From a virus: 27,753 nucleotides of DNA. The translations under genes and the position numbers were made by a program. Below, in pieces: positions 9,212-22,650 of the stretch. The stretch covers positions 1 to 27,753 of the IMG/VR virus record IMGVR_UViG_3300015076_000009. One strand, given 5' to 3'. The notes beneath the pieces were generated by a model that made no database searches, was not told where the DNA came from, and saw only the letters and a list, made by a program, of their open reading frames with translations. Each line of letters opens with the position of its first letter. The stretch's first letter is position 1.

Positions 9212-9213
9212 GC

Positions 9214-9786: not shown

Positions 9787-9822
9787 GTAGGGCTCCAGTT
9801 GTGTAAGCATATTGTCGCAGGC

Positions 9823-9927: not shown

Positions 9928-9930
9928 CTG

Positions 9931-10293: not shown

Positions 10294-10294
10294 T

Positions 10295-10576
10295 TCAATC
10301 CCTGATTTGTGCGTAGAGGCGATCACGGCGTTCTTTGTTGATGTAACGTTGACAGCCTTGCATCGACATATCGATCTCGTTCCATTCATGACCTTGCAGA
10401 ACCTGAACGTCCAGATCACTATGCACGATTCGGCAATACGTGATTGTCTCGTGCGAAGGATCCTCGACCGTCATCGACCCGTGACGAACGATCAATTCAT
10501 CATCTTCGCGATATTTCTGTTCCATCCACTCGCGACGTTGCGTCGTGCTCGCAAACAGCTTGAGGATGCGTTTCAC
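10295..10576 (-). CDS. Hypothetical protein, 93 aa, GTG start
   Basis: Not recognised. The GTG at 10576 has GGAG 5 bases upstream and begins two bases after the previous stop; a GTG at 10591 is less well placed. The protein starts with a basic helix (VKRILKLFASTTQRREWMEQ) and continues as a mixed, charged chain with no special motif. Confidence 0.72.
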   Translation of the reverse strand: MKRILKLFASTTQRREWMEQKYREDDELIVRHGSMTVEDPSHETITYCRIVHSDLDVQVLQGHEWNEIDMSMQGCQRYINKERRDRLYAQIRD

Positions 10577-10578
10577 GA

Positions 10579-10773
10579 CTACTCCGAGCACTGAATGGAA
10601 ATGTTGACCACATCATCGTCCAGCAGCTCGATCTGGTCGTCTATTTTCGGAAGCTCGGACAGCGCAAGGATCTGATCGCCTGCATGTCGTGCACAGTATG
10701 CCACGAAATTTTGCAATTCACGGTTTCTGTAGGACTCCGGATTCTTGACGATGATATAAAGGTTGAATTGCAT
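10579..10773 (-). CDS. Hypothetical acidic protein, 64 aa
   Basis: Not recognised. The start at 10773 overlaps the previous stop as TAATG. The N-terminus MQFNLYIIVKNPESYRNREL is beta-strand-like and the rest is helical and acidic with a DDDVV motif near the end. The long frame to 10929 crosses another gene and is not used. Confidence 0.7.
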   Translation of the reverse strand: MQFNLYIIVKNPESYRNRELQNFVAYCARHAGDQILALSELPKIDDQIELLDDDVVNISIQCSE

Positions 10774-11009
10774 TATTGCACCCACAAGATAAGAATGGCA
10801 CCGAGAACGTGGTTTTCGAAGCGCGTGAACTGCAGCTCGCGCTCGATAATGTGAACTTCCGGTGCGTCTGCGCCGAACAGACATCCGCTCAGCTTGTCGC
10901 CGACCTTCGCATTCGCAAGCGGATGCCATTCCGTGCTGAAAATAGCTTCCATCAGAAAGACCGTTTTTGCGGTCCTGTGCTGGATGATGACTTGATTCAG
11001 GCTAATCAT
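10773..11009 (-). CDS. Hypothetical protein, 78 aa
   Basis: Not recognised. The start at 11009 has GGAAGG upstream and lies one base after the previous stop. The chain reads as a small beta-rich soluble domain (MISLNQVIIQHRTAKTVFLM, then EVHIIERELQFTRFENHVLG). Its stop overlaps the next start as TAATG. It belongs to a run of five or six tiny beta-type proteins at the beginning of the leftward block. Confidence 0.72.
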   Translation of the reverse strand: MISLNQVIIQHRTAKTVFLMEAIFSTEWHPLANAKVGDKLSGCLFGADAPEVHIIERELQFTRFENHVLGAILILWVQ

Positions 11010-11010
11010 C

Positions 11011-11232
11011 TCAGACACCTTCCTTGATCGTGACGTCATGCAGCTTGCGAACAAGCGTATTTTCATGGTGACGGTCCCACATGAGACCGTTTTCGAGGGA
11101 CACCGCAATGATTTCGTTCTCCCGGCCTCCTACGCGAATGAACATCTCACTTTCGAAGACGAAGTAATCTCCGCGTTGGAGGTTCGAAACAACCTGTTCC
11201 GAACTTTCCAACTTAACGTGAACTTGAGTCAT
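11011..11232 (-). CDS. Hypothetical small beta protein, 73 aa
   Basis: The start at 11232 has GGAAG 4 bases upstream. The chain shows the pattern LQRGDYFVFESEMFIRV, then IIAVSLENGLMWDRHHENTL, alternating strands typical of a small beta-barrel seen repeatedly in early regions of phage genomes. Its function is unknown. An ATG at 11280 would lengthen it without a ribosome site. Confidence 0.75.
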   Translation of the reverse strand: MTQVHVKLESSEQVVSNLQRGDYFVFESEMFIRVGGRENEIIAVSLENGLMWDRHHENTLVRKLHDVTIKEGV

Positions 11233-11286
11233 GGAACTTCCTTGATTTGGATCGAGAGATATTGCGAACCTCGGAGGCATGCAGGA

Positions 11287-11427
11287 CTACACTCGCAGCG
11301 TCTTGTGAGTGTCCTTCCGAATCTTCCACAAGGCGAGCGACATGAGGACTGCCCGCTCACTGATGGGCGGTGGAGGGACGTAGAAGATCATGACTCCGCG
11401 ATTTTCAACATCGGCGAAATTGACCAC
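11287..11427 (-). CDS. Hypothetical protein, 46 aa, GTG start
   Basis: This short frame reads VNFADVENRGVMIFYVPPPP and continues with a basic helix ending KTLRV. AGGA, which overlaps the stop of the preceding gene, lies 4 bases before the GTG. An internal ATG at 11391 would give 34 residues but has poor spacing. It fills an otherwise empty gap in a tightly packed operon, so it is probably real. Confidence 0.6.
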   Translation of the reverse strand: MVNFADVENRGVMIFYVPPPPISERAVLMSLALWKIRKDTHKTLRV

Positions 11428-11433
11428 ATGTTC

Positions 11434-11748
11434 CTAACGTCGTTGCAGGATGCGTGCACGCGCAGCATCGTTGAATTGAATGTCGGACGCCTTGAAGACA
11501 GTCACGCCGCGTTTGTTGAAGAACTGCTCTGCAGTCACGAGGTAACCTGCGCAGCGGGACGAATCGGGTACGGGTGCGTAGATCCAATATTCAGGCTTCT
11601 CGCCTGCGTCTTGCACTTGCGACGCATTGTGAATCAGGATCTGCGGATCGTGTTCCGGTCCTACATCCGTTGCACTAAAAAGATCGCCCCAAGCCCAGCG
11701 GCTGTTGGCTTCGTCGATCAGAGCAAATCCGGTGATGATGCATTGCAT
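11434..11748 (-). CDS. First gene of the leftward operon, hypothetical, 104 aa
   Basis: Not recognised. AGGA lies 7 bases before the ATG at 11748, just after a GTTAATTAAC palindrome. The protein is soluble with mixed strands (MQCIITGFALIDEANSRWAW; CAGYLVTAEQFFNKRGVTVF). As promoter-proximal gene of the leftward block it is likely made early and strongly. Confidence 0.75.
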   Translation of the reverse strand: MQCIITGFALIDEANSRWAWGDLFSATDVGPEHDPQILIHNASQVQDAGEKPEYWIYAPVPDSSRCAGYLVTAEQFFNKRGVTVFKASDIQFNDAARARILQRR

Positions 11749-11956
11749 GTGCGCGTCCTGTTAATTAACCGATGCATGCATATTAACATGAAAAGGAGAA
11801 ATGTGGGAGATATGGGTGTAACGTAAGCAATTGTAACAATTCGATTTGGAGCCCAGAACCGGATTGTGGGAGTCCGAAAGACCCTACGCTTTTGGGGGGT
11901 TTCGATGTTCGTGCTTCCGAACCGAGGGTAAACCCTCTGAGCATCAACCCTTATAC

Positions 11957-11974
11957 GAAGTAAGCGCTTACTTC
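11957..11974. repeat. 18-bp perfect palindrome (GTAAGCGCTTAC core)
   Basis: GAAGTAAGC is followed directly by its reverse complement GCTTACTTC. Related GTRAG-N2-CTYAC sites occur at 16341-16352 and 16723-16734, and a half-site near 12117. A dimeric DNA-binding protein is the likely reader. Confidence 0.6.
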
Positions 11975-12083
11975 TCTTCAAGGTATGTCGTCACTCACCT
12001 ACATTTCGATATAGTCGACTACTCTAATACACTACTACCGATGTAGGTTAGTAGCTACACACCTAGCAGGTATGTGCACGCTC

Positions 12084-12099
12084 ACCTACACCTGTAGGT
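12084..12099. repeat. 16-bp palindrome ACCTACA-CC-TGTAGGT
   Basis: Perfect 7-bp arms with a two-base centre. Single half-sites lie near 11998 (ACCTACA) and 12043 (TGTAGGT), giving an array of four half-sites across ~100 bp. Confidence 0.6.
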
Positions 12100-12190
12100 T
12101 AGGCACTACTCACATAGAAGTAAGCGCCCGCTCTCCCTCCTGCCCGCCTCCTTACAGAGCCAGCAAATATCGAATAATCGATATGTGAAA

Positions 12191-12206
12191 GGCGGCTCAC
12201 GCCGCC
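12191..12206 (-). terminator. Hairpin terminator after the 53-aa gene
   Basis: GGCGGC-N4-GCCGCC is a perfect 6-bp stem lying 14 bases after the stop at 12220 in the direction of transcription, followed by TTT. The T-tract is short, so termination may be partial. Confidence 0.55.
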
Positions 12207-12219
12207 TGTGCGTTGCAGG

Positions 12220-12381
12220 TTAGTGCACGCTCGCCAACTTCAGCGCCGCCTGCACGTCGGCAATGGGCTTGCCGTCCTTGTACATCTGCAGCGCAACAGC
12301 AGCAACGCCGATCACGCGCATACGGTTCACGTACACGGACAAGGACTGGAGACGCTGGGAAGGTTGCGGGAAGTGGGTCAT
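12220..12381 (-). CDS. Hypothetical protein, 53 aa
   Basis: This frame begins with ATG at 12381, preceded by TAGGAG at 6-7 bases. The protein is MTHFPQPSQRLQSLSVYVNR, then a helical part with VAAVALQMYKDGKPIADVQAALKL. It has its own TATAAT-type promoter (12428-12433) with an upstream TGTAAAG box, a ~45-base leader and a hairpin terminator. It is therefore a one-gene transcription unit. No family was recognised; the small helical fold suggests a host-interaction factor. Confidence 0.72.
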   Translation of the reverse strand: MTHFPQPSQRLQSLSVYVNRMRVIGVAAVALQMYKDGKPIADVQAALKLASVH

Positions 12382-12427
12382 TACGAACTCCTAGGTGCAC
12401 TGTGCGTTGCGCTGTGTGCATGTAGCA

Positions 12428-12477
12428 ATTATATGCGATGCACCTGGTTAGTAGACGCTTCGTTTGCATCTTTACAA
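12428..12477 (-). promoter_or_regulatory. Promoter with TGTAAAG box, copy 1
   Basis: On the minus strand TTGTAAAG starts at 12477 and TATAAT at 12433, 44 bases apart, with TGCATCG just before the -10 and TGCTACATGCA just after it. No TTGACA-like -35 is present, so an activator at the TGTAAAG box may replace it. It serves the 53-aa gene. Confidence 0.6.
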
Positions 12478-12498
12478 AGTAGGCAGATTATTCGAAGT

Positions 12499-12543
12499 GT
12501 GTAAAGTCGCTTGACGTAGCAGACTGTATGTGCATCGTATAAC
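12499..12543 (+). promoter_or_regulatory. Promoter-like TGTAAAG / TGCATCG-TATAAC, reading into the AT-rich region
   Basis: GTGTAAAG at 12499 and TATAAC at 12538 are 39 bases apart, with TGCATCG before the -10 as in the other copies. No gene starts downstream for over 700 bases, so a transcript from here would be a leader or a replication primer. Confidence 0.4.
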
Positions 12544-12586
12544 CACACTGATCAGCAGGTTATGCGAATTACTTGACAGATCGCAA

Positions 12587-13002
12587 ATTAACAGAATGGA
12601 GCGCAACGCGCACAATTAACCGATATTTGCAAACATTCTTACATCTGTTACATCGAGAAATATTGTACAGATTCCCGATGCATATTGTGGATGCTGTATA
12701 GTGTATAAATAGTAATAATTAACTAAATAACAAAGAAATACAGCTTGACAAAATACCTCTTTTTTTATTTTTTTACGTACATCGTGTTAATCGCATTCCT
12801 TCTGTTAATCCTCCCACATAACACAATTAACGTATTATGCGCATTTCCCAGTGCATATGCGTTTTTATTATATATAAAAATTTTCCCCTATATATAGCGC
12901 AGCGTACATATGTTAAGCGCGCTCCATAACACACCTACTTCCAATTAATAATTTTTACGCGTAAGTCCACTACTTCTTGTTAATCGCAATAGTTCTGTTA
13001 AT
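12587..13002. repeat. Array of GTTAAT/ATTAAC boxes
   Basis: Eight exact boxes occur: ATTAAC at 12587, 12615, 12718 and 12826, and GTTAAT at 12786, 12804, 12979 and 12997. Two GTTAAT pairs are each spaced 18 bp and sit within a 26-bp near-repeat (12784-12809 and 12977-13002). Two more sites lie at 11760 and 11782. The spacing suggests an iteron-like or cooperative binding array. Confidence 0.55.
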
Positions 13003-13237
13003 AGCTTTTCTTGCCTGGACAGCACAGCATTTAACGTTCTGTAAAGTGCTCACAGCTCTCCCTGATAATGTGCTAACTGCACAAAGTTGGTCTGCACGTG
13101 GAGCGCACGCAAGTAGCACAGCCGCTAGCACAATCACAAGCTTTTTGTGTCCACTTTACAAAGATGCATATTCACGCTGTGCACAGTGTGGTCATGTCGT
13201 CAAGCACTATCTGCAATAACCCTCTGATCAGGTTTAA

Positions 13238-13278
13238 TTGTAAAGCTGATCCCGCTGCTGCTTTGCGCATCGTATAAT
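13238..13278 (+). promoter_or_regulatory. Promoter with TGTAAAG box before the 60-aa membrane gene
   Basis: TTGTAAAG at 13238 and TATAAT at 13273 are 35 bases apart, with GCATCG just before the -10. Transcription would start about 13285 and give a ~20-base leader carrying AAGGAG. An AACCCTCTGA site lies just upstream (13218-13227). Confidence 0.6.
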
Positions 13279-13303
13279 TGTGCATCAACACAAGGAGTCC
13301 GCA

Positions 13304-13486
13304 ATGTCCCGTTCCGAGTACGCTGCTAATATCGATCAACAATGCGAGCAGCCGTCCCGCGCGCAAATGCAGCAAGCTGCAATGCACGATAGCGCTTACA
13401 GCAACCTGCTGTTCGCTGTCCTCGGCTTTGCTGCTACGTGCGCAGTTGCCGCGCTCTGCGTGTTTTACATCTCCCGCTTGTTTTAA
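13304..13486 (+). CDS. Small membrane protein, 60 aa
   Basis: AAGGAG precedes the ATG by 7 bases. The first ~35 residues are polar and Gln-rich (MSRSEYAANIDQQCEQPSRA). The end is one hydrophobic helix (NLLFAVLGFAATCAVAALCV) with a short aromatic tail, so it should anchor in the inner membrane with the N-terminus facing the cytoplasm or periplasm. It forms a complete single-gene unit with promoter at 13273 and terminator at 13496. It is unrecognised; early phage membrane peptides of this kind often modify host membrane proteins or block superinfection. Confidence 0.75.
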   Translation: MSRSEYAANIDQQCEQPSRAQMQQAAMHDSAYSNLLFAVLGFAATCAVAALCVFYISRLF

Positions 13487-13495
13487 AGCTTGACA

Positions 13496-13520
13496 GCCTG
13501 CCTAGTGCGGGCTTTCTTTT
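13496..13520 (+). terminator. Rho-independent terminator
   Basis: AGCCTGC, a short loop and GCGGGCT pair with one G-T wobble, followed by TTCTTTT. It closes the 60-aa membrane gene. Confidence 0.7.
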
Positions 13521-13620
13521 ACTCTGCAGAGAAGTCCGCACTCACTTCTAACGACGCCCACCCTCTGGGCCACCATCCCGAGTGTGCCTCTTCGAACGCA
13601 TGCATTAATTCTAACAGAAA

Positions 13621-13642
13621 ACTAGGCGCTTGCGCACCTAGT
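13621..13642 (-). terminator. Hairpin terminator for the leftward 81-aa gene
   Basis: ACTAGGCGC and GCACCTAGT form a 9-10 bp stem with wobble. On the minus strand it is followed by TTTTCTGTT. It lies 14 bases after the stop at 13656. Confidence 0.6.
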
Positions 13643-13655
13643 AGTTTCGCTCAGC

Positions 13656-13901
13656 TTACTGCAAGTGTATGCAGACTTCTTCCATTGCGAACTGCAACGC
13701 GATGTCCAGCGTTGCGCAGCAGAACACGAGCTGCTGTCCGGACAGCGTTTGCATCGTGCCCTCCGCGTCCGTGCGGATCACGATAAACTCTTGTCCGCTG
13801 TTGCGCATGTTCAAATCTTCGTAGACACGAACTTCCGTGCGCTCGCTGTTGTCCGTTTGTTCTGCAACGAACGTTGCGACGCGAATTTTCTCTTGCGGCA
13901 T
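13656..13901 (-). CDS. Hypothetical protein, 81 aa
   Basis: Not recognised. The ATG at 13901 has AAGGAG 5 bases upstream, which decides it over the frame start at 13955. The protein begins MPQEKIRVATFVAEQTDNSE and has a beta-rich centre (TEVRVYEDLN, EFIVIRTDAE) and a helical end with two adjacent Cys. It follows the HTH gene in the same direction after an 93-base gap and ends at its own terminator. Confidence 0.7.
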   Translation of the reverse strand: MPQEKIRVATFVAEQTDNSERTEVRVYEDLNMRNSGQEFIVIRTDAEGTMQTLSGQQLVFCCATLDIALQFAMEEVCIHLQ

Positions 13902-13994
13902 AGCTTCTCCTTGTTGTCCAGCAGAATTGCAAACACTTACACCTAGCAGATGCAAATGTTTGCAAGCAGGCTTGCGCCTACTTGCTTGTCGTAC

Positions 13995-14243
13995 TTAGTT
14001 CGTGACGACTTGCTTCTTCATGCGCGCGTTGCGGCAGCGCACGGCAGCGGGCGTGCTCGACTCGGCGCGCCAGCGGTAGAACTGCAGGCGGACCGTCGTC
14101 GGGTGCATGCCGAGCTGTTCCGCAATTGCGGGGAGGTGCTTGCTCGTGATCACGGACGTGCTTTCCTCGAACACTTCGCGGATCACGCCGCACAGCGTTG
14201 CCTTCGTGTCGTTCATGGCTTGGGTCTTGGCTTGTTCGGACAT
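13995..14243 (-). CDS. Small helix-turn-helix protein, 82 aa
   Basis: The ATG at 14243 has GGAG 6 bases upstream. The N-terminal half is helical. Residues ~35-65 read SVITSKHLPAIAEQLGMHPT followed by TVRLQFYRWRAE. This matches a helix-turn-helix in which AEQLGMHPTTVRLQFYRW would be the turn and recognition helix. The C-terminus is basic (RCRNARMKKQ). It is a candidate reader of one of the palindrome families around it. It has its own TATAGT promoter with a TGTAAAG box. Confidence 0.7.
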   Translation of the reverse strand: MSEQAKTQAMNDTKATLCGVIREVFEESTSVITSKHLPAIAEQLGMHPTTVRLQFYRWRAESSTPAAVRCRNARMKKQVVTN

Positions 14244-14306
14244 TTTAAACTCCTGCGTGCTTTGCACTTTGGGTTGCGGGGAGCGACTTGCTTTCCCGAT
14301 GTGTTA

Positions 14307-14356
14307 ACTATAACTCAGATGCGATGCGCTGTGTCAGCGTTTTTGCATCTTTACAG
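14307..14356 (-). promoter_or_regulatory. Promoter with TGTAAAG box, copy 3 (HTH gene)
   Basis: CTGTAAAG begins at 14356 and TATAGT at 14312 on the minus strand, 44 bases apart as in copy 1, with GCATCTGAGT before the -10. Confidence 0.55.
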
Positions 14357-14458
14357 AGTAACCAGAATTGCGATTTGCGTGCGCACAGCCAACAGCAGAT
14401 CAGCCCAGCCGAAGCCGGTTGCGCGGAGCGCGTGCGAAATGTGTTGGACTGTTTGCAT
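14351..14458 (-). CDS. Possible leaderless small protein, 35 aa
   Basis: A frame MQTVQHISHALRATGFGWAD, then LLLAVRTQIAILVTL, with codon choice like its neighbours, starts six bases after a TATAAT box. No Shine-Dalgarno sequence is present, so it would be a leaderless message. The second half is hydrophobic. Its stop codon overlaps the TGTAAAG box of the next promoter. It may be only the transcribed leader of the HTH gene; the coding call is tentative. Confidence 0.4.
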   Translation of the reverse strand: MQTVQHISHALRATGFGWADLLLAVRTQIAILVTL

Positions 14459-14464
14459 GTAGCA

Positions 14465-14504
14465 ATTATAAGATGCAAAACATCTTGCAGGTGCATCTTT
14501 ACAA
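14465..14504 (-). promoter_or_regulatory. Promoter with TGTAAAG box, copy 2
   Basis: TTGTAAAG begins at 14504 and TATAAT at 14470 on the minus strand, 34 bases apart, with GCATCT directly before the -10. TGCTACATGCA follows it, exactly as in copy 1. Confidence 0.6.
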
Positions 14505-14538
14505 TGCTGGCAGATTATGCACCTGCGTGCACGCGCGC

Positions 14539-14803
14539 AAATAGCTCAGAAAATATTTTTAGGCAAGCGATATTTTGCTGCTCTTTTGTGCTAGCGCCGA
14601 AGAAAGATGTATTGCACACCTTGCTTATAAAAGAGGCACAAGTGCTAGCACATAAAAGAGCTAAAATACACCTTGCCAAATAAATATTTTCGTGCTCGCA
14701 CCGAGTAAGACATATTCTGCAACTTGCCTAGTAATGTGGCCACACTGCTAGCACAAGTCGGGCTGAAAATATCGCTTGCGCAAACTTTATTTCTGAGCTA
14801 TTT
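14539..14803. repeat. Long interrupted inverted repeat
   Basis: Left blocks AAATAGCTCAGAAA (14539-14552) and GCAAGCGATATTTT (14563-14576) recur as exact reverse complements at 14790-14803 and 14766-14779, with the same 10-base gap. TTGTGCTAGC follows each arm at the same offset inward, so about 57 bp per arm is organised alike. The ~150-base interior has the palindrome GTGCTAGCAC (14641-14650) and two ACACCTTGC copies. No gene lies inside. Confidence 0.75.
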
Positions 14804-14862
14804 ACAGCGCGTTTTATGCTCGATGTTTAGGCAGGACAAACATCTAAAAAGAGCTGATACAA

Positions 14863-14877
14863 CGGAGACACTCTCCG
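14863..14877 (+). terminator. Hairpin before the 76-aa gene, terminator or attenuator
   Basis: CGGAGA-CAC-TCTCCG is a perfect 6-bp stem followed by CCTATTTTCTT. It lies 62 bases before the next start codon, so it could end upstream transcription or act as a leader hairpin. Confidence 0.45.
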
Positions 14878-14939
14878 CCTATTTTCTTAGATACTACGTA
14901 CATGGGTTGCAAAGTGCAGCTCGCAACAAGGAGTTCCAA

Positions 14940-15170
14940 ATGTACGCACTCGAAACGATCAGCAAGGATGTCAAGTCCTACGCAACGGAAGCGAACGCAG
15001 TAAAGGCTGTGGTTGCTTACTTCGGCCCGCAAAACGACAACACGGATCGCCACTGCAACATCCTGATCGTGTGCAACGCGCAAGGGCGCTTTGTCCCGAT
15101 GTGCATCAACATTCGCCCAGGTCCGTCGTTCAGCGTGTGCCTCAACAGCGGCTTTTTCTGCGCGAACTAA
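14940..15170 (+). CDS. Hypothetical protein, 76 aa
   Basis: AAGGAG lies 6 bases before the ATG at 14940. The protein MYALETISKDVKSYATEANA has a helical N-terminal half and a beta-like second half with four Cys (HCNILIVCNAQGRFVPMCIN). It has no signal peptide and no known motif. It is preceded by the inverted-repeat region and followed by a CGGGT/ACCCG hairpin. An upstream in-frame extension to 14724 has no ribosome site. Confidence 0.7.
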   Translation: MYALETISKDVKSYATEANAVKAVVAYFGPQNDNTDRHCNILIVCNAQGRFVPMCINIRPGPSFSVCLNSGFFCAN

Positions 15171-15199
15171 GCAGCAAAAACATCGGGTGCATCTACCCG

Positions 15200-15257
15200 G
15201 TGCAAATTATAGTGCGTGCTCTAGGCGCGTGCTCTACGCGCGTGCTATAATTTGCAC
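15200..15257. repeat. 13-bp inverted repeat enclosing a triple 13-bp direct repeat, with TATAAT promoter
   Basis: GTGCAAATTATAG (15200-15212) and CTATAATTTGCAC (15245-15257) are perfect inverted copies. Between them GCGTGCTCTA-type units repeat three times with a 13-base period, the last one merging into TGCTATAAT. Each arm contains a TATAAT, one on each strand. The rightward extended -10 serves the gene at 15275. Confidence 0.7.
15246..15251 (+). promoter_or_regulatory. Extended -10 promoter for the 61-aa gene
   Basis: TGCTATAAT followed by TTGCACATCAAC and then AGGAG. The early transcribed sequence resembles that after the 13273 promoter (TGTGCATCAACAC). Confidence 0.6.
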
Positions 15258-15274
15258 ATCAACTAGGAGCTAAC

Positions 15275-15460
15275 ATGCCCAATGTCCTTACCGTGTCCGC
15301 TTTCGCGCATTTCGTAGCGATCACTCTGCAAAACGACAAAACGCATAACGTCGAGCTGCTCGGACTAATTGCGGATATGGAGGAAACCGCTCGGGACATG
15401 GATAACCCGCTGTTGGCGCAAGCTGCGCGTTTGCTTGCGCAAGCCGAACAAGAGCTATAA
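15275..15460 (+). CDS. Hypothetical helical protein, 61 aa
   Basis: AGGAG lies 5 bases before the ATG. The protein MPNVLTVSAFAHFVAITLQN continues as an acidic helical region (IADMEETARDMDNPLLAQAA, RLLAQAEQEL). It is probably a small helical bundle or coiled pair. It is a single-gene unit with its own promoter and paired hairpins downstream. No family was recognised. Confidence 0.72.
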   Translation: MPNVLTVSAFAHFVAITLQNDKTHNVELLGLIADMEETARDMDNPLLAQAARLLAQAEQEL

Positions 15461-15467
15461 TCCTCCT

Positions 15468-15513
15468 AAGCCGGTTTCCGGCTTAAGCCTGTGTCCTTTA
15501 AGAGGACAGAGGC
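15468..15513 (+). terminator. Two tandem hairpins after the 61-aa gene
   Basis: AAGCCGG-TTT-CCGGCTT is a perfect 7-bp stem. It is followed by AAGCCTGTGTCC and GGACAGAGGCTT, a 12-bp stem with one mismatch (15483-15513). No T-run follows, so it may be a structured leader or an RNase-stop for the next gene rather than a plain terminator. Confidence 0.5.
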
Positions 15514-15537
15514 TTAATCACGTAAGGAGTAAATGAT

Positions 15538-15810
15538 ATGCTGGTTTCATGCTTCAAAATTTCCGCCCCGGACGTGCAAAGCGCAGCGCAAGCGCAGGAA
15601 CTCGCGGACACGTGGGTGCACGAGCAGGATGTGTGCACAGTCGAAACGGTTAGCGTCCACGAGCTGCACTCCGACAAGCGCTACTCTGCGGAATACGAGT
15701 TCCGCGTGCACCCGTACGAGATGCATTTTTCAGGCCCGGCGCACGTCGAAAGGACCTACTTTGCACTCGAGCAGAGCCTGCATCAAATGCTCGCGCATTA
15801 CCTGGGTTAA
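15538..15810 (+). CDS. Hypothetical acidic protein, 90 aa
   Basis: The ATG at 15538 has GGAG 8 bases upstream within AAGGAGTAAATGATATG; the ATG at 15533 in another frame opens a longer but arginine/threonine-rich shadow. The protein is acidic with several His (VSVHELHSDKRYSAEYEFRV) and looks like a small alpha/beta domain. It has no recognised family. It lies between two sets of hairpins and shares its leader style with the next three genes. Confidence 0.72.
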   Translation: MLVSCFKISAPDVQSAAQAQELADTWVHEQDVCTVETVSVHELHSDKRYSAEYEFRVHPYEMHFSGPAHVERTYFALEQSLHQMLAHYLG

Positions 15811-15820
15811 AACCCTCGTC

Positions 15821-15888
15821 AGGGTGGAAACACCCTGCAAACGCCTGCGCCTCATTAGGGTGCATGCGTTTGCAACGCGCATATGCGC
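15821..15888 (+). other. Cluster of three hairpins between two small genes
   Basis: AGGGTG-GAAA-CACCCT (15821-15836) has a GNRA tetraloop. TGCAAACGC (15836-15844) pairs with GCGTTTGCA (15866-15874). GCGCATATGCGC (15877-15888) is a 12-bp palindrome right before the next ribosome site. The last could hide or expose the start of the 85-aa gene. Confidence 0.5.
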
Positions 15889-15904
15889 TTTAGGAGTAAC
15901 TGAT

Positions 15905-16162
15905 ATGCCGGAAGTAAACGCACTGCAACGCGCACGCATGGACGCAGCGCTGGAGCGCATGCGGGACCTCGGAGTGACTGCGCACGAACTGTTTGCCTAC
16001 ACGGTTGCGCAAGGCGCAATTGAGATCACGCGCGGCATGCAAGAAGAAGACCCGGAAGTGGATATGCCGGAAACGTGCGAAGCATATCTGGAAACCGAGG
16101 AAGAGTCGCTGAACGACACGGCAGACGCCTGGTTGTCCTACCTGCTCAATTCCGGTGCATAA
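15905..16162 (+). CDS. Hypothetical acidic helical protein, 85 aa
   Basis: The start at 15905 has TAGGAGTAACTGATATG, the same leader pattern as the gene at 15538. The protein begins MPEVNALQRARMDAALERMR, is helical, and becomes strongly acidic (MQEEDPEVDMPETCEAYLET, EEES). A long in-frame extension upstream is arginine/threonine-rich and is rejected. Very acidic phage proteins sometimes mimic DNA, but that is only a thought here. A terminator follows. Confidence 0.72.
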   Translation: MPEVNALQRARMDAALERMRDLGVTAHELFAYTVAQGAIEITRGMQEEDPEVDMPETCEAYLETEEESLNDTADAWLSYLLNSGA

Positions 16163-16168
16163 CGCGCC

Positions 16169-16190
16169 CGGGCCAGAACTAGGCCCGTTT
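16169..16190 (+). terminator. Rho-independent terminator
   Basis: CGGGCC-agaacta-GGCCCG followed by TTT, seven bases after the stop of the 85-aa gene. Confidence 0.7.
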
Positions 16191-16210
16191 CTGGCGAGTA
16201 CGCACGAACC

Positions 16211-16335
16211 GAGGGTTTGTCCCCCTGAGTATTGACCCTATGAGGGTATACCCTCTGATGGTTAGTACCCAGAGTAGAAACCCTCTGATAGAATACCCTG
16301 TAAATATTTACCCTCAGGTGCCTCACGCTGAGGCA
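16211..16335. repeat. ACCCTC/GAGGGT site array
   Basis: GAGGGTATACCCTC is a perfect 14-bp palindrome at 16242-16255. Single sites lie at 16211 (GAGGGTT), 16234 (GACCCTA), 16279 (AACCCTCTGA), 16294 (TACCCTG) and 16309 (TACCCTCAGG). A TGCCTCA-CGC-TGAGGCA hairpin ends the array (16319-16335). The same sites recur near 11931, 13218, 16776 and 16791. Confidence 0.6.
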
Positions 16336-16375
16336 TGTTGGTAAGCGCTCACGAGCCCGGTTCCGACCTATAAAG

Positions 16376-16464
16376 AAGCATGCTTTTTCAAAAACGTCTG
16401 GATTCGTTTTTGCCTAGTTTTGGAGAAGCATGCTTTTTCTTCCCCGCAACAAAGAAGCATGCTT
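16376..16464. repeat. AAGCATGCTT cluster 1 (three copies)
   Basis: Copies at 16376-16385, 16426-16435 and 16455-16464, the last extended to AAAGAAGCATGCTTCTTT. A 26-bp sequence (16397-16422) between copies 1 and 2 recurs at 16849-16874 with one mismatch. The last copy is 19 bases before the ATG at 16484. Confidence 0.75.
16397..16422 (+). repeat. 26-bp direct repeat, copy A
   Basis: TCTGGATTCGTTTTTGCCTA and six more bases. Copy B at 16849-16874 differs only at one position. Both precede small genes with the AAGCATGCTT operators, as if the control region had been duplicated. Confidence 0.7.
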
Positions 16465-16483
16465 CTTTTATCTAGGAGTTGAT

Positions 16484-16699
16484 ATGACAATTCGTACTGG
16501 AACTGTTGCCGTCCCGTTCTTCTGCGGAACGCGAAACGAGTTCGATCCTGTGCTGCACTGCAACATTCAGAAGCGCGCATACTGGACAGTTGGCACCGAC
16601 GTGCACGTCCTGGAATCCCGTCCTGGACAGATCTATATCGAACTGCCCAACGGAACGAAAGCCTGGGTCGGTTTGTCGCGGGTGCACTTGAACGACTGA
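16484..16699 (+). CDS. Hypothetical small beta protein, 71 aa
   Basis: TAGGAGTTGATATG gives a clear ribosome site. The protein MTIRTGTVAVPFFCGTRNEF is beta-rich and contains WTVGTDVHVLESRPGQIYIE, then LPNGTKAWVGLSRV. That alternation resembles an SH3-like barrel, although no family was matched. It is expressed from the region controlled by AAGCATGCTT cluster 1. Confidence 0.72.
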   Translation: MTIRTGTVAVPFFCGTRNEFDPVLHCNIQKRAYWTVGTDVHVLESRPGQIYIELPNGTKAWVGLSRVHLND

Positions 16700-16722
16700 T
16701 CTATATCAGCGAACTTGCTGAA

Positions 16723-16803
16723 GTGAGCACTCACGAACGAGCGCAGGTTTGTTCGTGCTCACTATCCTGAGAGTTTACCCTCTAGCTGAGAACCCTCAGG
16801 ATA
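16723..16803. repeat. Palindromes after the 71-aa gene
   Basis: GTGAG-CA-CTCAC (16723-16734) is related to the GTAAGCGCTTAC palindrome. TATCCTGAG (16763-16771) and CTCAGGATA (16795-16803) form a perfect 9-bp inverted repeat enclosing ACCCTC sites at 16776 and 16791. Confidence 0.55.
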
Positions 16804-16848
16804 CTGATCAAGCATTTGGCCCGGATCCTCGGTAGATTTTGCAAAAGC

Positions 16849-16874
16849 TCTGGATTCGTTTTTACCTAGTTTTG
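16849..16874 (+). repeat. 26-bp direct repeat, copy B
   Basis: Differs from 16397-16422 at a single base (G to A at position 16). It lies 14 bases before AAGCATGCTT cluster 2. Confidence 0.7.
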
Positions 16875-16887
16875 ACTTTTGCTTGAA

Positions 16888-16948
16888 AAGCATGCTTCTT
16901 TGTTTTTGCGAAAAGCATGCTTCTTTCTGCTACAATAAAAGCATGCTT
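16888..16948. promoter_or_regulatory. Operator-promoter: AAGCATGCTT cluster 2 overlapping a TACAAT promoter
   Basis: Copies at 16888-16897, 16913-16922 and 16939-16948 are spaced 25 and 26 bp. A -10 box TACAAT (16931-16936) lies between the second and third copies. The second copy fills the -35/-10 spacer and the third covers the start point. This is the layout of a three-site repressor-controlled promoter. The gene at 16964 follows after a GGAC ribosome site. Confidence 0.7.
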
Positions 16949-16963
16949 TGAAAGGACTTTGAT

Positions 16964-17233
16964 ATGACGAATTCTACAACGCTTGCCATCTTCGACGGAC
17001 GATACGTGGTTTCTGCAACCGGTGAGGACTACGAAGCGTCTGACCATAGTGTCGGACTGCAAGGCGGCTTCACATCGTTCGTGCTGAACAGCGCCTTCAA
17101 TGGCGTCACCAAGGAAGACTTAACCGAAGAGCAGTTGCGCGAGATCAATATTCGAATCGACAATAGCTCGTTCGAGACGGAGCGCATCCTCGAAGCGCTG
17201 GACGCTGCATACGATCCGGGTTGCGACGACTGA
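16964..17233 (+). CDS. Hypothetical acidic protein, 89 aa
   Basis: AAGGACTTTGATATG precedes the start, the same leader form as the three genes before. The protein MTNSTTLAIFDGRYVVSATG is acidic and ends with a helical segment (TEEQLREINIRIDNSSFETE) and CDD. It is unrecognised. Three operators overlap its promoter, so tight control is expected. Confidence 0.73.
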   Translation: MTNSTTLAIFDGRYVVSATGEDYEASDHSVGLQGGFTSFVLNSAFNGVTKEDLTEEQLREINIRIDNSSFETERILEALDAAYDPGCDD

Positions 17234-17380
17234 CCTTGCGTTACACTGCAACTCCTGCGGCCTGCATGTGGCTAGCGAGTGCACACCAACCTTGGATGAT
17301 CAAGTGCCTGAATCAGATCGACCCTTGCCTATCAGTTTCTGGTCCCAACCTGTCCCTGCAGCGACAGCGGACCAGGATAA

Positions 17381-17418
17381 AAGCATGCTTCTTTCTGCAG
17401 AGGAAGAAAAGCATGCTT
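17381..17418. repeat. AAGCATGCTT cluster 3 (two copies)
   Basis: Copies at 17381-17390 and 17409-17418. The 20 bases from 17379 are identical to those at 16911-16930 in cluster 2, so part of the operator-promoter was copied. The first copy contains the ATG proposed for the next gene. Confidence 0.7.
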
Positions 17419-17909
17419 CTGATCTGAATCTTAACGATTGGATGCCGAGCTTCGATTCCAAGGGTTTGACACGCGCCGACGTGCAAGCGCTGTACGGAAC
17501 GTTCAGCCAGCAGATGGGTCAAGAGCTTCGCACGTACGAACAGATCTATCAGCATGTCTGCATGGTTCAGATTGCTATGCAGAAGCAACCGCAAGCAAAT
17601 ATCGATCCGGTTTGGGTTGCGCAGCACGATGCATTCACACCGAAAATTTTTGTTGGGGAAGACCCGGCAAGCGCTTCCGCAGCGGACGCTATGGAAGCGC
17701 AGGACAACGCACACGCACAGCAGGCAAGCGCTTTGCCGCGTGCTCAACTCCACGATATCGCAGAGGCTGCGCGCCTATCCTGGAAGGATGCTGTCGAGCA
17801 ACGCCGAAAAGCTGTATCAGACTGGGATGAATACGTCCGCATGAAGCATGCGGACTACGATCAAGCAAAAGCCAACCTGAAGGCTTTTCGAAAGCATGCT
17901 TCTACGTAG
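17385..17909 (+). CDS. Hypothetical protein, 174 aa, start codon inside an operator
   Basis: The frame is open from a GTG at 17268 without a ribosome site. AGGA lies 7 bases before the ATG at 17385, which is chosen. The protein is helical, with DWMPSFDSKGLTRADVQALY, an Ala/Gln-rich middle and a basic helical end (EQRRKAVSDWDEYVRMKHAD, YDQAKANLKAF). No domain was recognised. Four AAGCATGCTT copies lie in or touching the frame: two at the start, and one at the end encoding KHAS plus one just after. If the longer start is real, cluster 3 lies within the coding sequence. Confidence 0.65.
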   Translation: MLLSAEEEKHASDLNLNDWMPSFDSKGLTRADVQALYGTFSQQMGQELRTYEQIYQHVCMVQIAMQKQPQANIDPVWVAQHDAFTPKIFVGEDPASASAADAMEAQDNAHAQQASALPRAQLHDIAEAARLSWKDAVEQRRKAVSDWDEYVRMKHADYDQAKANLKAFRKHAST

Positions 17910-17925
17910 ATAGGAAAGCATGCTT
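17892..17925. promoter_or_regulatory. AAGCATGCTT cluster 4 with possible promoter
   Basis: Copies at 17892-17901 and 17916-17925, spaced 24 bp. A TAGATA box (17907-17912) lies between them, in the same relation as TACAAT in cluster 2. It precedes the HTH and primase operon. A second possible promoter, TTGCGA-N18-TAAACT, lies at 17950-17979. Confidence 0.55.
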
Positions 17926-18019
17926 ACGGCAATTTTCACTTAACAGATGTTGCGATCGGTAGGGACGCGCTGCTAAACTGCACTCCCGCATCGCTTTTTA
18001 CGAAACTTCGGAAGCGCAC

Positions 18020-18256
18020 ATGAGTTCAACAACTGCCCAGGACCGTTTTAACGAGAAGTATGTCTCGTCGCGGGAGATCCTGAAGCGCCTGAAGGTGACG
18101 CGCCCCACGATCAGCAAAGCTCGAACACGGGGATTGCTGCCTGATCCTATTGTCATTCACGATACGCTGATCTTCCTGTGGGAACGGGAAGTGGTGGAGC
18201 CATACATCGCGGCGTGGGAACTCCTGCTCAATGCGAAGCGTGCACACAAGCAATGA
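18020..18256 (+). CDS. Helix-turn-helix DNA-binding protein, 78 aa
   Basis: GGAAG lies 5 bases before the ATG. The region YVSSREILKRLKVTRPTISK, then ARTRGLLPDP, is a winged-helix or MerR/excisionase-like HTH: helix SSREILKRL, turn, and recognition helix TRPTISKARTRG. The rest is an alpha-helical tail (ILWE...YIAAWELLLNAKR). Its stop overlaps the primase start as ATGA. It could repress this operon, load the primase at the origin, or read the AAGCATGCTT sites just upstream; sequence alone cannot say which. Confidence 0.78.
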   Translation: MSSTTAQDRFNEKYVSSREILKRLKVTRPTISKARTRGLLPDPIVIHDTLIFLWEREVVEPYIAAWELLLNAKRAHKQ

Positions 18257-20652
18257 ATCAACTGCCGCGTTGGGGCGAAATCCCCGAGGAAATGCGTCAG
18301 CGTCGGCAATGGTTGCTTGCCGCTCCTGACGCCCACGGACAATTGAAGGTCCCTTCCCGCATGTCTGACGGACGTGTGGTTAAGACGGACAACACCGATT
18401 CCGAAACGTGGATGACCTTCGACGAAGCTGCATCTACCGCCTATCAAAACGGCATGGGGATCGGCTATTGTATCCACTATACAGATCCATACGTGTGTAT
18501 CGATCTGGATGTGAAGGGTGATCACAATGAGCCTGATCCTTCTAAGTGGACCACTCAGCAGCAGATCGACCGCTACTGGTTCATGGTACAAGCGTTCGAC
18601 TCGTATACTGAACTGTCGCAGTCAGGCAAGGGCTTGCACATCTGGGTTCGTGGGGTCACTAAGGACGGTGCGAGACACGACGGCGTTGAACTCTATGCTG
18701 AGTCGCGTTTCATGGTGTGCACTGGTGCACAACTGTTCGCGGGTAAAGAAATTCAAGAGCGTCAAGCGCTCGTAAATATTCTTTACGACGAAATTCGTGA
18801 ACACCAGGCAGCGAAGCAAAAGTTCGCTGACCTCGAGGAACGCGAAGAGACCGAAACAGACGAACAGATCCTCGAGCGTGCGCGCAATGCGGACAACGCT
18901 GCAAAGTTCATCGAGCTCTACGAAGGTCGCTGGGAGCAATATAACTTCCCTTCGAACTCCGAAGCTGATCTCGCACTCATGTCGATCTTCACCTTCTATA
19001 GCCGTGCAGACGAGCAGTGCCGTAGACTGTTCCGTGGTTCGAAGTTGGGCACACGCGAGAAGTACGCACCTGACAAGGATTACCACATCAACCGCTTGCT
19101 CGGCTTGATTCGTGGGCGTCAAGCTGCTGAAGATGCGCGCGATGCAAAGTTCGCGGAGCAAGGCGCAGACATGGCGAAGCGTATCTCTGAAGAAGCTGCA
19201 CTGAAAGCGTATGCAGCATCGTTGGGGGCGCCTGAACTGAATAGCGCTGGGGCTGGTCTCCCTCCCGCCCCTGTACAGGAACTGCCCGCCCCGCCCGCTG
19301 TAGGAAGCGAAGCTTCTATCCAGTGGCCTCCAGGCTTTGCCGGTGCCCTTGCAGGCTTCGTCTACGACTCGGCGCCGCGTCCGGTCAAGGAAGTTGCTAT
19401 CGTTGCAGCACTAGGCTGGCTCGCTGGTGTGTGCGGCAAGATGTGGAATATCCCCGGTTCTGGTCTGAATATCTACCTTATCCTGGTTGCACGTAGCGCA
19501 GTCGGCAAGGAAGCGATGCACAGCGGTCTAGGCGCATTGCTGGCTAAGCTGCGCGAAGCTATCCCGTCCGCACAGGACTTCGTGGACTTCAACGATTACG
19601 CTTCCGGCCCTGCACTTGTCAAAGCATGCGCAGTCAATCAATCCTTTGTAAATGTGGCGGGCGAATGGGGCAAGAAACTGAAACGCCTGTCGATGGACGG
19701 GGACAAGGACGGTCCGATGCAGCAATTGCGGACCGTGATGACCAATCTGTATCAGAAGAGCGGTCCTGCATCGGTCGTTGGCGGTCTTACGTATTCGGAC
19801 AAGGAGAAGAACATCGGTTCTGTTTCGGGTGTCGCGTACAGTATGATCGGGGAGACAACGCCCGGAACATTCTACGACTCGTTGACTGAAGGAATGATGG
19901 AAGACGGTTTCCTGTCACGCTTCACGATCGTGGAGTATACAGGAGAGCGTCCGCCTGCGAACTATCAGCCCGTCAAGGAACCGCCTACACCAATCGTCGA
20001 ACAGTGCATCCAGATTATGATGCACCAGAAAACATTGTTCGGCAACCGTACCCCTCCTGTTCAGGTGTTGCGAACTGCTGAAGCTGGCGAAATGATGCTA
20101 GCGTTCGACAAGGAGTGTGACGCAGAGATCAATAAGACGACAGACGAGTCCTGGCGTCAGATGTGGAACCGCGCCGCGCTCAAGATGATGCGCATAGCTG
20201 CGCTTCTGGCTGTAGGTGACAATCCGTTCCAGCCTGTGGTCACAGTCGAACAAGTCAAGTGGGCTTTGGACCTCATTCGTCGCGATATCGCCATTATGCG
20301 CCGGCGTGTTGAGTCCGGTGATATCGGCAATGGCGACGGTGTGCGGGAACGCAAGATTATCTTCATCACGAAGAAGTTCTTCGAAGAGGAACCGGGCCCG
20401 GGTTACAAAATTCCTGCGGGCATGCGCGGCAAGGGTGTCATCCCTCGTTCCTATCTGCAGATCCGTACATCCAGGCTGGCTCCGTTCATGAATGCACGCA
20501 ATGGGGCGACGAAAGCCCTTGACGAAGCCATCCGATCCTGTGTCGATTCTGGTTACCTTGTGGAAGTCGACAAGGCAAAGCTCGCTGAAGAATATGGCGC
20601 AGCGGGTAAGGCATATCGTGTGATCTCACTTCCGAACTATAATGTTGAATAG
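18253..20652 (+). CDS. Primase-polymerase / DUF3987 replication protein, 799 aa
   Basis: The start at 18253 is coupled to the HTH gene (ATGA). The N-terminal ~200 residues resemble the PrimPol domain of NrS-1-type phage polymerases: VCIDLDVKGD gives the metal-binding pair Asp84/Asp86, and SYTELSQSGKGLHIWVRG gives the SGxGxH motif with His129. After a charged helical linker and a Pro/Ala hinge, the C-terminal half is DUF3987, a P-loop module of phage and plasmid replication proteins. Its Walker A is ARSAVGKEAM with Lys419; the usual Ser/Thr is Glu. FVNVAGEWGKKLK may be the following acidic motif. It should prime and perhaps unwind phage DNA. It is the replication core of the window. Confidence 0.88.
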   Translation: MNQLPRWGEIPEEMRQRRQWLLAAPDAHGQLKVPSRMSDGRVVKTDNTDSETWMTFDEAASTAYQNGMGIGYCIHYTDPYVCIDLDVKGDHNEPDPSKWTTQQQIDRYWFMVQAFDSYTELSQSGKGLHIWVRGVTKDGARHDGVELYAESRFMVCTGAQLFAGKEIQERQALVNILYDEIREHQAAKQKFADLEEREETETDEQILERARNADNAAKFIELYEGRWEQYNFPSNSEADLALMSIFTFYSRADEQCRRLFRGSKLGTREKYAPDKDYHINRLLGLIRGRQAAEDARDAKFAEQGADMAKRISEEAALKAYAASLGAPELNSAGAGLPPAPVQELPAPPAVGSEASIQWPPGFAGALAGFVYDSAPRPVKEVAIVAALGWLAGVCGKMWNIPGSGLNIYLILVARSAVGKEAMHSGLGALLAKLREAIPSAQDFVDFNDYASGPALVKACAVNQSFVNVAGEWGKKLKRLSMDGDKDGPMQQLRTVMTNLYQKSGPASVVGGLTYSDKEKNIGSVSGVAYSMIGETTPGTFYDSLTEGMMEDGFLSRFTIVEYTGERPPANYQPVKEPPTPIVEQCIQIMMHQKTLFGNRTPPVQVLRTAEAGEMMLAFDKECDAEINKTTDESWRQMWNRAALKMMRIAALLAVGDNPFQPVVTVEQVKWALDLIRRDIAIMRRRVESGDIGNGDGVRERKIIFITKKFFEEEPGPGYKIPAGMRGKGVIPRSYLQIRTSRLAPFMNARNGATKALDEAIRSCVDSGYLVEVDKAKLAEEYGAAGKAYRVISLPNYNVE

Positions 20653-20657
20653 GCGGG

Positions 20658-20687
20658 TTGTTATCGTTACTGATGTTGCGCTAACAT
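20658..20687 (+). promoter_or_regulatory. Sigma70-like promoter TTGTTA-N18-TAACAT
   Basis: It follows the primase stop by 6 bases. Six bases separate the -10 from an ATG at 20694, so a transcript would begin at or near it. It would drive the structured spacer, and possibly the nucleotide operon beyond. Confidence 0.5.
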
Positions 20688-21082
20688 ACTCGTATGCCTT
20701 CCGTCCTCTCCACGCGCCTTTCCGCAGTGCTTGCCCTTCTAGGGGCGGTACGTGCGACGGCGGCTCAAGCCTGCGACGAGGGTATCCACGCCCTTCGCAG
20801 GCTGCGCCACTCCGTGGAGAGTTTGCCGCCTGCTGCGGCTGATTGGGAAACCAGAACCGGCGCATTCCCTCCTGCGCTGATCGTAGTCCAGCTACGGTGT
20901 TTCTGGCGCGTTGTGCGGCGTTACTGCACACCCGGGTTTGCCCGGCAGGTGCCATTTCGATTAGCGACTGATGCACGTGAAACCGTGCGTCGGCGCTATG
21001 CCCGGCACATCTTTCTGACTACCAATCAGAAGTGGATCAACACGAGGGGCGCCGGCGCTCTATGTAGATACGGAGTGCCGGC
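20688..21082 (+). ncRNA. Candidate structured RNA in the 20653-21113 spacer
   Basis: In ~390 bases there are at least seven stems: CTCTCCACG/CGTGGAGAG (20706-20714 with 20813-20821) enclosing AGCCTGCGA/TCGCAGGCT (20768-20803); CGTAG/CTACG (20882-20896); CCGGG/CCCGG (20932-20945); GCACG/CGTGC (20973-20988); TTCTGA/TCAGAA (21013-21031); and GCCGGCGCTC/GAGTGCCGGC with one wobble (21051-21082). A promoter points into it. A 131-aa frame (20694-21089) also spans it, starting with ATG but without a ribosome site and rich in Arg, so a leaderless protein is the alternative. The spacer is the only large break in an otherwise overlapping operon. Confidence 0.45.
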
Positions 21083-21113
21083 TACCTGACCACATTCAAC
21101 TGGACACAAGAAC

Positions 21114-22076
21114 ATGACCGATATTTCGCGCCACCCGATCCTCGGGATGATTTACATCGCCGCAGGGCTCGTCGAAAACCTGGGCGCAAGTCCGCGTCAT
21201 ACCGATGCCGCACAGGCCGTATTCAGCCTGCTCGGGCATACCGATAAGCTACTCAATCAGAAGGACGAAGCCGAAGCGCTCGTCGACACGCTCAAGGCTC
21301 ACCCGCTGCACGACATCTTCGGCGACGTTGTCGACATGAACGAAGCCTTCGGCAACCCGAAGGGCGATCCGCACTCGATCAACGGCAAGAAGCTGTTCAA
21401 TCAGTGCAAGAACATCGGCGACGAGTTCATCGAGCTCATGAACGCCTTCGGCTGGGAATGCGAGATCAAGCTCACCCCGCGCGCTCCGCATCCACACGAC
21501 ATCCGCACTCCTCAAGGCGACGCCCAAATCATCGCGATCCGAGATGCGCTGTGCGACATCAACGTCTTCAGCCTGGGTGCGCACCACTTCACCGGCTACG
21601 ATGCCCGCATCGACATGCGCGCTGTGTATGAGTCCAACATGTCGAAGTTCGTCAAGAACATTTCCGACGAAGTGCAGACACGCGCCAAGTTCGATGCTGC
21701 TGGCGTCCAGTACACAATCGACGGTGAGTATCCCCGCGTCGTGTTCCGCAGTGCATTCGATCAGCCCGACATGCCTGCCGGCAAGTTCTTGAAGTCGGCA
21801 TCGACGTTCAAACCCGTCTTCGTGCTCGCTGCCAAGCCCCAGTCCGCCGAAGACGTCGTTGCCAAGATGCATGCGGAACATGCGGCTCGCAAGGCCGAAC
21901 ACGATCGGAAGATGGCGCAACTGCAAGATGAAGTCGCTGCCTTCTGCGCCAAGCGCGAACTCGAACTATTCGGCTTGCCTGCATTCGATGATCACTTGAA
22001 CCAGACGCCGGGTGCTGTCAACGAGGGCGCGCTCCGCGACTTGCACGATGCATCCTACGTGCACAAGGTAGGCTGA
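21114..22076 (+). CDS. All-alpha NTP pyrophosphatase (MazG/HisE-like), 320 aa
   Basis: The chain has the features of phage phosphoribosyl-ATP/dNTP pyrophosphohydrolase-like proteins: FNQCKNIGDEFIELMNAFGW supplies the first acidic helix (DExxE type). IRDALCDINVFSLGAHHFTG is the second, with RDALCD. YESNMSKF is the typical NMSK-type motif before the FLKSASTFKPVF segment that resembles the K-x-x-x-F-x-P ending of HisE-like enzymes. It should hydrolyse nucleoside triphosphates to monophosphates, shaping the nucleotide pool for phage replication. The C-terminal ~80 residues are a helical extension. The ribosome site is weak (GGACACAAGAAC). It heads the nucleotide-metabolism part of the operon. Confidence 0.8.
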   Translation: MTDISRHPILGMIYIAAGLVENLGASPRHTDAAQAVFSLLGHTDKLLNQKDEAEALVDTLKAHPLHDIFGDVVDMNEAFGNPKGDPHSINGKKLFNQCKNIGDEFIELMNAFGWECEIKLTPRAPHPHDIRTPQGDAQIIAIRDALCDINVFSLGAHHFTGYDARIDMRAVYESNMSKFVKNISDEVQTRAKFDAAGVQYTIDGEYPRVVFRSAFDQPDMPAGKFLKSASTFKPVFVLAAKPQSAEDVVAKMHAEHAARKAEHDRKMAQLQDEVAAFCAKRELELFGLPAFDDHLNQTPGAVNEGALRDLHDASYVHKVG

Positions 22077-22078
22077 TC

Positions 22079-22642
22079 ATGGCAGCGCGTAAGCCTGTGG
22101 AAGAAGCAGACCCGCTGCCGACACGTGAGCAGTGGATCGCTTACTGCGCCACGTTCGTCGCGGCCGATTCCAACTTCATTCCTCCCGAGCAACTGTGCGT
22201 GGAGGATATCGAGGACTGGCAAGCGGCCTCCAAGCGCATGAAAGAAGCGCAAGATATCGAACGCAAGTACCGTGACAAGATTTATCGTCACCTCTTCAAG
22301 AACCCTGAAGAGGGCGCGAATAACGTCAAGCTCACCGACGGCCGCAAGATCACTGCAACGCGCAATATCACGCGTAAGCCTGACGCAGGGCTTATCGATG
22401 CCATGGGCAGGCGCACTGTCGGTGATATGCGCAGTTACTTGACGCAACTCGGCGTCGACCTCAGCGCTTTCGACGACAGTGAACTTGTGGTCAATGCTGT
22501 GCAGTTGCGGCTGGATGAAGTGTTCAAGTGGACACCCGAACTCGTCACGGCCGATTACCGCAAGCTGACACCCGAGCAACTGATCCTGGTGGATTCACTG
22601 CTCGAGATCAAGGACGGCTCTCCGCAAGTCAAGATCGCCTAG
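22079..22642 (+). CDS. Hypothetical phage protein, 187 aa
   Basis: The ATG lies two bases after the previous stop. The protein has a mainly helical N-terminal half (WQAASKRMKEAQDIERKYRD, KIYRHLF), then beta-type segments VKLTDGRKITATRNITRKPD and a helical end (LTPEQLILVDSLLEIKDGSP). This pattern occurs next to replication and recombination genes in many phages, where it has no assigned function. It is not an obvious enzyme; no nucleotide or metal motif is seen. Coupling suggests a link to nucleotide or replication functions. Confidence 0.78.
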   Translation: MAARKPVEEADPLPTREQWIAYCATFVAADSNFIPPEQLCVEDIEDWQAASKRMKEAQDIERKYRDKIYRHLFKNPEEGANNVKLTDGRKITATRNITRKPDAGLIDAMGRRTVGDMRSYLTQLGVDLSAFDDSELVVNAVQLRLDEVFKWTPELVTADYRKLTPEQLILVDSLLEIKDGSPQVKIA

Positions 22643-22650
22643 GAGGCATC

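Follow-up and report, generated by a model that had tools for sequence, protein, structure and literature searches.

Ten exact copies of the 10-base palindrome AAGCATGCTT were found in the window (the whole stretch of DNA analysed, an entire virus record of 27,753 bases), and all ten lie within 16376-17925, beside the genes of a phage replication module. The reading that we favour, at a probability of roughly 0.5, is that these palindromes would be operators for a dimeric phage-encoded protein that controls the replication module and the neighbouring small genes. The original prediction, which had counted ten copies in four clusters about 500 bp apart, was borne out: the copies start at 16376, 16426, 16455, 16888, 16913, 16939, 17381, 17409, 17892, and 17916, successive clusters begin at distances of 512, 493, and 511 bp, and the intervals within clusters are, in order, 50, 29, 25, 26, 28, and 24 bp, matching the predicted 24-29 bp with one of 50. 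A count of the 10-mer over the entire 27,753-base record, itself only part of the phage genome, returned no exact copy beyond 16376-17925, and shuffled sequence yielded a mean of 0.03 copies and at most one (100 shuffles). One-mismatch versions numbered only three in the window, all distant from the array (6107, 9206, and 13964; chance mean 1.16), and the same scan gave no degenerate copy in the array region. The spacers between the copies are mutually unlike, with a mean similarity of 0.23 vs 0.30 for random sequence.

Two of the four clusters precede small genes on the forward strand. Cluster 1 (16376-16385, 16426-16435, and 16455-16464; span 16376-16464), whose first copy is immediately preceded by TATAAA at 16369-16374, lies upstream of an ORF of 71 aa (16484-16699) with no family match, and cluster 2 (16888-16897, 16913-16922, and 16939-16948; span 16888-16948) lies upstream of an ORF of 89 aa (16964-17233) with no convincing family match (best E 0.11). 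Cluster 3 (17381-17390 and 17409-17418; span 17381-17418) is probably intragenic, in the 5′ part of a forward-strand ORF of up to 213 aa with a GTG start (17268-17909), because the blast match of this ORF to its homologue in the closest viral-collection record, G001 (24% identity over 179 aa, E 9e-10), begins before the cluster; an in-frame ATG at 17442, just past the cluster, is a possible alternative start. The same ORF weakly matches gp58 of phage NP1, and its last codons are overlapped by the first copy of cluster 4 (17892-17901 and 17916-17925; span 17892-17925). The original placement next to gene starts holds for clusters 1 and 2. Beyond cluster 4, the primase operon opens on the forward strand with a small winged-HTH-like protein (18020-18256, phrog_11967) and continues with a DUF3987 primase/helicase (18253-20652), which also has a weak, below-cut-off match to the NrS-1 polymerase HBD. 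A near-identical segment, CTGGATTCGTTTTTRCCTAGTTTTG, also occurs upstream of both small ORFs (about 16398-16422 and 16850-16874), and ACCCTCTGA-type repeats together with inverted repeats occur upstream of clusters 1 and 2 (16223-16299 and about 16765-16800).

A scan of 13900-18300 for consensus sigma-70-type promoters listed none, where 3.2 would be expected by chance, and the promoters described here therefore derive from comparison at cluster 4 and from pattern only at cluster 2. The putative forward-strand promoter of the ORF at 16964 (16906-16936) consists of TTGCGA (16906-16911), a long spacer of 19 bp, and TACAAT (16931-16936); one cluster 2 copy (16913-16922) falls in this spacer and another (16939-16948) covers the expected start site, in agreement with the arrangement proposed originally at a TACAAT promoter. 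The replication-operon promoter (17950-17979, forward strand) reads TTGCGA-N18-TAAACT and has counterparts in relatives, namely TTGCAA-N18-TAAACT in G001 and TTGCGA-N17-TACACT in NP1, PaMx25, DoCa3, and VPv62; in R7M the −35 box is present, and in MiCath, Salva, and Seurat no counterpart was seen. Cluster 4 ends 24 bp before the −35 box, so that it, like the copies in G001, stands upstream of a conserved promoter element and not on the promoter itself. In the stretch of about 100 bases that precedes the small HTH gene, Variovorax phage VPv62 and Pseudomonas phage NP1 are almost identical (L198, L197).

The primase/helicase had protein matches in 395 named phage records, the best of them in the Nipunavirus/Queuovirinae group (50% identity to PaMx25), and DNA matches in 44 records covered part of the region 15270-22650. 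Judged by these similarities, the record probably represents roughly one half of a Nipunavirus-like phage; the genomes of the nearest relatives are about 58 kb, and about half of the window phage is therefore probably missing. The interval 25874-26040 contains a tRNA-Thr gene and another tRNA-like gene whose anticodon is unclear. G001 (IMGVR_UViG_3300048907_000254; loci L066, L120, and L137), with a primase 66% identical, carries six AAGCATGCTT copies 24-28 bp apart at the place matching cluster 4 (L120:4538-4680). Not a single copy occurs in any of 14 complete named relatives, no palindrome arrays were seen at the matching place in the named relatives examined, and among the relatives compared only the window and G001 have palindromes at the replication-operon promoter. 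On this comparison the array is lineage-specific. It seems to have been added to a promoter that already existed, since the promoter is retained without the array in NP1, PaMx25, DoCa3, and VPv62, as is its −35 box in R7M.

Two local proteins are candidate binders. The first, immediately downstream of cluster 4, is the HTH protein at 18020-18256, which is 65% identical in G001 and present also in array-less relatives. The second is a small helical HTH-like protein on the reverse strand (13995-14243), for which a clear homologue was found only in array-bearing G001 (57% identity over the alignment, 68% over the best stretch): no convincing HMM homologue appeared in the other loci compared, and two collection scans gave G001 alone. 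A weak hit in the array-less NP1 group (27%, E 0.06) may be distantly related. Both candidates were modelled in structure from two-sequence alignments, with moderate mean pLDDT values of 77.0 and 77.5, and neither model gave a PDB match with E below 0.001; the model of 18020-18256 weakly resembled MerR/RacA-type folds. A single DNA-binding family shared by array-bearing phages was considered and rejected, as HTH_3 (14 of 40 records), GcrA (10 of 40), RHH_1 (4 of 25), and ParB_N (3 of 27, above cut-off in one) each occur in only part of the array-bearing records. Since about half of the genome is probably missing, the true binder may be encoded beyond the window.

If a dimeric phage protein reads these strict 10-bp sites, it could set the timing of transcription of the replication operon and the small genes. 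At cluster 2, occupancy of the sites in the spacer and on the start site would block RNA polymerase, and the array upstream of the replication promoter could act by cooperative binding or by looping, given clusters spaced about 500 bp apart. The sites of an operator array should be confined to regulatory regions; clusters 1, 2, and 4 do lie close to a promoter or to the start of a gene, but with cluster 3 probably intragenic the array shows this only in part. Besides the several intragenic sites, the position of cluster 4 off its promoter, the persistence of the HTH protein at 18020-18256 in relatives without sites, the lack of one DNA-binding family across array-bearing phages, and the empty consensus promoter scan all count against operators. 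Of the shared repressor regulon originally proposed, the non-random sites at one locus, upstream of two small genes and the HTH/primase operon, stand, the array before that operon being common to the window and G001; the upstream offset in cluster 4 and G001 and the probably intragenic cluster 3 fit it less well, and repression would be only one way in which a bound protein might act.

Several known systems offer partial parallels. Iterons of plasmid and phage origins are likewise repeated short sites adjoining a replication gene, but as a rule they are direct repeats spaced at regular helical intervals, whereas the window has palindromes spaced 24-29 bp apart (once 50) in several clusters. 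Temperate mycobacteriophages are described as carrying operator/stoperator arrays, with many short sites at promoters and elsewhere that are read by the phage repressor (PMC9283540); the likeness lies in the many copies of a short site in one phage genome, although stoperators are portrayed there as asymmetric and genome-wide, while AAGCATGCTT is palindromic and packed within 1.5 kb at the replication module, with a repressor that is only putative. The operators of RptR, presented as a small dimeric protein acting at its own promoter, also consist of a short repeated palindrome, but one of 6 bp (TAGCTA) in 9-bp repeats, in bacterial defence islands and with some variants tolerated (PMC12255303), as against 10-bp sites 24-29 bp apart in phages with a candidate reader only. 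In orf56/orf904 of pRN1, a small repressor gene is reported to precede a replication-protein gene in one operon, much as in the window, where the repressor role of the HTH protein is putative; pRN1 is, however, an archaeal plasmid, and its likely origin is given as a stem-loop, unlike the palindrome array here (PMC4234260). The literature matches listed for the AAGCATGCTT string, judged by title, included no phage study, and in one of these papers the string belonged to a cloning primer; those on phage palindrome arrays at primase genes held nothing relevant by title, one having primers only.

Arrays of the same palindrome recur well outside this lineage, which the original prediction, made from this one stretch, could not have shown. 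Three copies in a short range were found at 33 viral loci, a figure that includes duplicates (L096/L130 and L005/L121), and control palindromes of the same base composition formed triple arrays at two loci and one locus, the single locus being counted irrespective of tandem form. When the spacers within each array were compared for likeness, 9 of the 33 viral arrays proved to be plain tandem repeats and 24 (again including duplicates) non-tandem. Pairs of CAAGCATGCTTG exactly 23 bp apart were seen in many contigs among the matches listed (for example, L001, L024, and L080); these probably are CI-type operators of other phages, a different class, and such loci were excluded by eye, uncounted, from the 80 stretches listed out of 119.

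Gene content was compared in 28 contigs, comprising the window and 27 of the 39 records searched whole, with the other 12 records left out and some compared in part (G012 over 1-19000, G024 over 1-77000). Primase-helicases of clusterable families were present in 18 contigs and were not found in the other 10. In 13 of the 18, a palindrome lies within 800 bp of the primase-helicase gene or inside it, and in the remaining five (G004, G005, G006, G022, and G027) the distance is 5-18 kb; with tandem repeats excluded (two near cases, G015 and G023, and one far case, G004), the near cases number 11 of 15. These 11 fall into three groups with no blastp link between them (DUF3987, AAA_25/RepA-like, and VapE-like); G015, one of the tandem repeats, carries DUF5906 and groups with the DUF3987 primases. 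Members within one primase group are related, and the association therefore represents few independent events.

Proximity to at least three primase groups could also point to replication initiation, with the array forming all or part of an origin in which iteron-like sites bind an initiator (the small HTH protein or the primase/helicase) that melts DNA and loads helicase, promoter effects being secondary. We consider this rather unlikely. The free positions of the sites, coding sequence included, are such as iterons can have, and the cumulative GC-skew minimum falls on the array in G008 and 5-6 kb away in G007, G020, and G032; skew minima, however, also track gene orientation, the minimum is 7-8 kb off in G018, and two of the 13 near cases (G015 and G023) are plain tandem repeats. 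An origin would have no need of the clusters that precede the two small genes, such repeats are missing from relatives whose primase is related, and a rival candidate region exists at 14539-14803. The idea that a conserved origin is a general feature of the DUF3987 module was rejected, because the 14 complete named relatives lack the site and those examined have no palindrome array at the matching place. The rival region, situated between divergent genes, is AT-rich and contains a 38-nt inverted repeat (14539-14576 and 14766-14803; 84% complementary, 189 nt apart) as well as three degenerate 22-nt repeats 51-52 bp apart, making it another origin or control candidate.

The recurrence of one 10-mer in unrelated phages might instead reflect a host DNA-binding protein, toward whose sites several phage lineages evolved arrays independently. 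There is a published precedent in the clusters of CtrA sites in phages of Alphaproteobacteria, where sites of one regulator are described as having evolved independently in several lineages; CtrA is a host regulator that reads TTAA-N7-TTAA (PMC9437464), whereas almost no paired AAGCATGCTT sites occur in the bacterial genomes examined. Site pairs 14-44 bp apart were scored in only three of 754 genomes, 2 of 385 in one bacterial class and 1 of 369 in another; the classes were those to which a Bradyrhizobium and an Azoarcus genome belong, a sample that may exclude the true host, and two of the three positives are the seed genomes themselves, which had been picked because they carry arrays. The equivalent triple-array search of a whole bacterial genome collection gave nine loci, seven of them plain tandem repeats; the other two, L215 and L216, have the same array as viral loci L129 and L037. 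The non-tandem arrays are spread over phage loci of about 0.34 to 0.66 G+C. A host reader is thus disfavoured, and improbable on these genome comparisons; the contrast of 33 viral with nine bacterial loci, which concerns triple arrays, leads to the view that the reader of AAGCATGCTT is probably virus-encoded, as the operator reading supposes.

Turnover of the sites could be followed in the C10 lineage of AAA_25-type primases. A palindrome-blind search with a C10 primase recovered nine loci (two of them, L227 and L230, absent from the triple-array list, and one, L231, with the same site positions as L228), and all nine carry five to nine copies near or in the primase gene, amounting to 66 exact copies of AAGCATGCTT vs seven one-mismatch versions. 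In six homologous primases, the intragenic palindromes lie at partly different codons, with residues replaced and nothing inserted, a pattern that fits copies arising by substitution as DNA sites under selection rather than as a mobile repeat; transposition or insertion was accordingly rejected for this lineage. Because the copies are exact, repeatedly placed at primase-helicase genes, and turned over with few one-mismatch versions, AAGCATGCTT looks like a strictly read DNA site.

The local array is of a known sort, and what is surprising is its recurrence across unrelated phages, as arrays of operators or iterons are usually found in a single phage lineage only. The occurrence of the same exact palindrome at replication genes of unrelated phages, together with its scarcity as an array in bacteria and the exactness kept despite amino-acid changes in a primase, suggests a shared and undescribed reader. 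More tentatively, then, AAGCATGCTT might belong to a virus-specific control code, in which one novel phage protein of strict sequence specificity, or several unrelated proteins by convergence, would read it at replication modules of at least three primase-helicase kinds and even within a primase gene. Identification of the reader would give a handle on replication timing in these phages, and the 10-mer is usable as bait.

Strictness of sequence combined with freedom of position, intragenic sites included, is also what a partition or clamp-like system would display. KorB and ParB sites are strict palindromes found both near promoters and within genes. Such a system, or a structural use in packaging or recombination, nevertheless seems very unlikely, as ParB_N is scarce among array-bearing records and was detected in neither the window nor G001. 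That the array is a functionless mobile or low-complexity repeat, spread by insertion or tandem duplication as the tandem arrays with like spacers (9 of 33 viral, 7 of 9 bacterial) might suggest, is hardly credible given the unlike spacers in the window, and is largely refuted for the C10 lineage by the codon replacements.

Eight records of the C10 lineage (G007, G010, G017, G018, G020, G032, G044, and G045) all have AAGCATGCTT at the primase. Searches by primase or by GcrA-like protein found no close named relative of these eight, and the GcrA-like protein of G018 had no match in named phages. Two RHH-type proteins are encoded in all eight (one confirmed by HMM, the other recognised on visual inspection of blastp hits), and six of the eight also encode a GcrA-like protein; neither type was found in the window. 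In four of the eight records, a further element, GATTGCGNTATCG, lies between the AAGCATGCTT copies.
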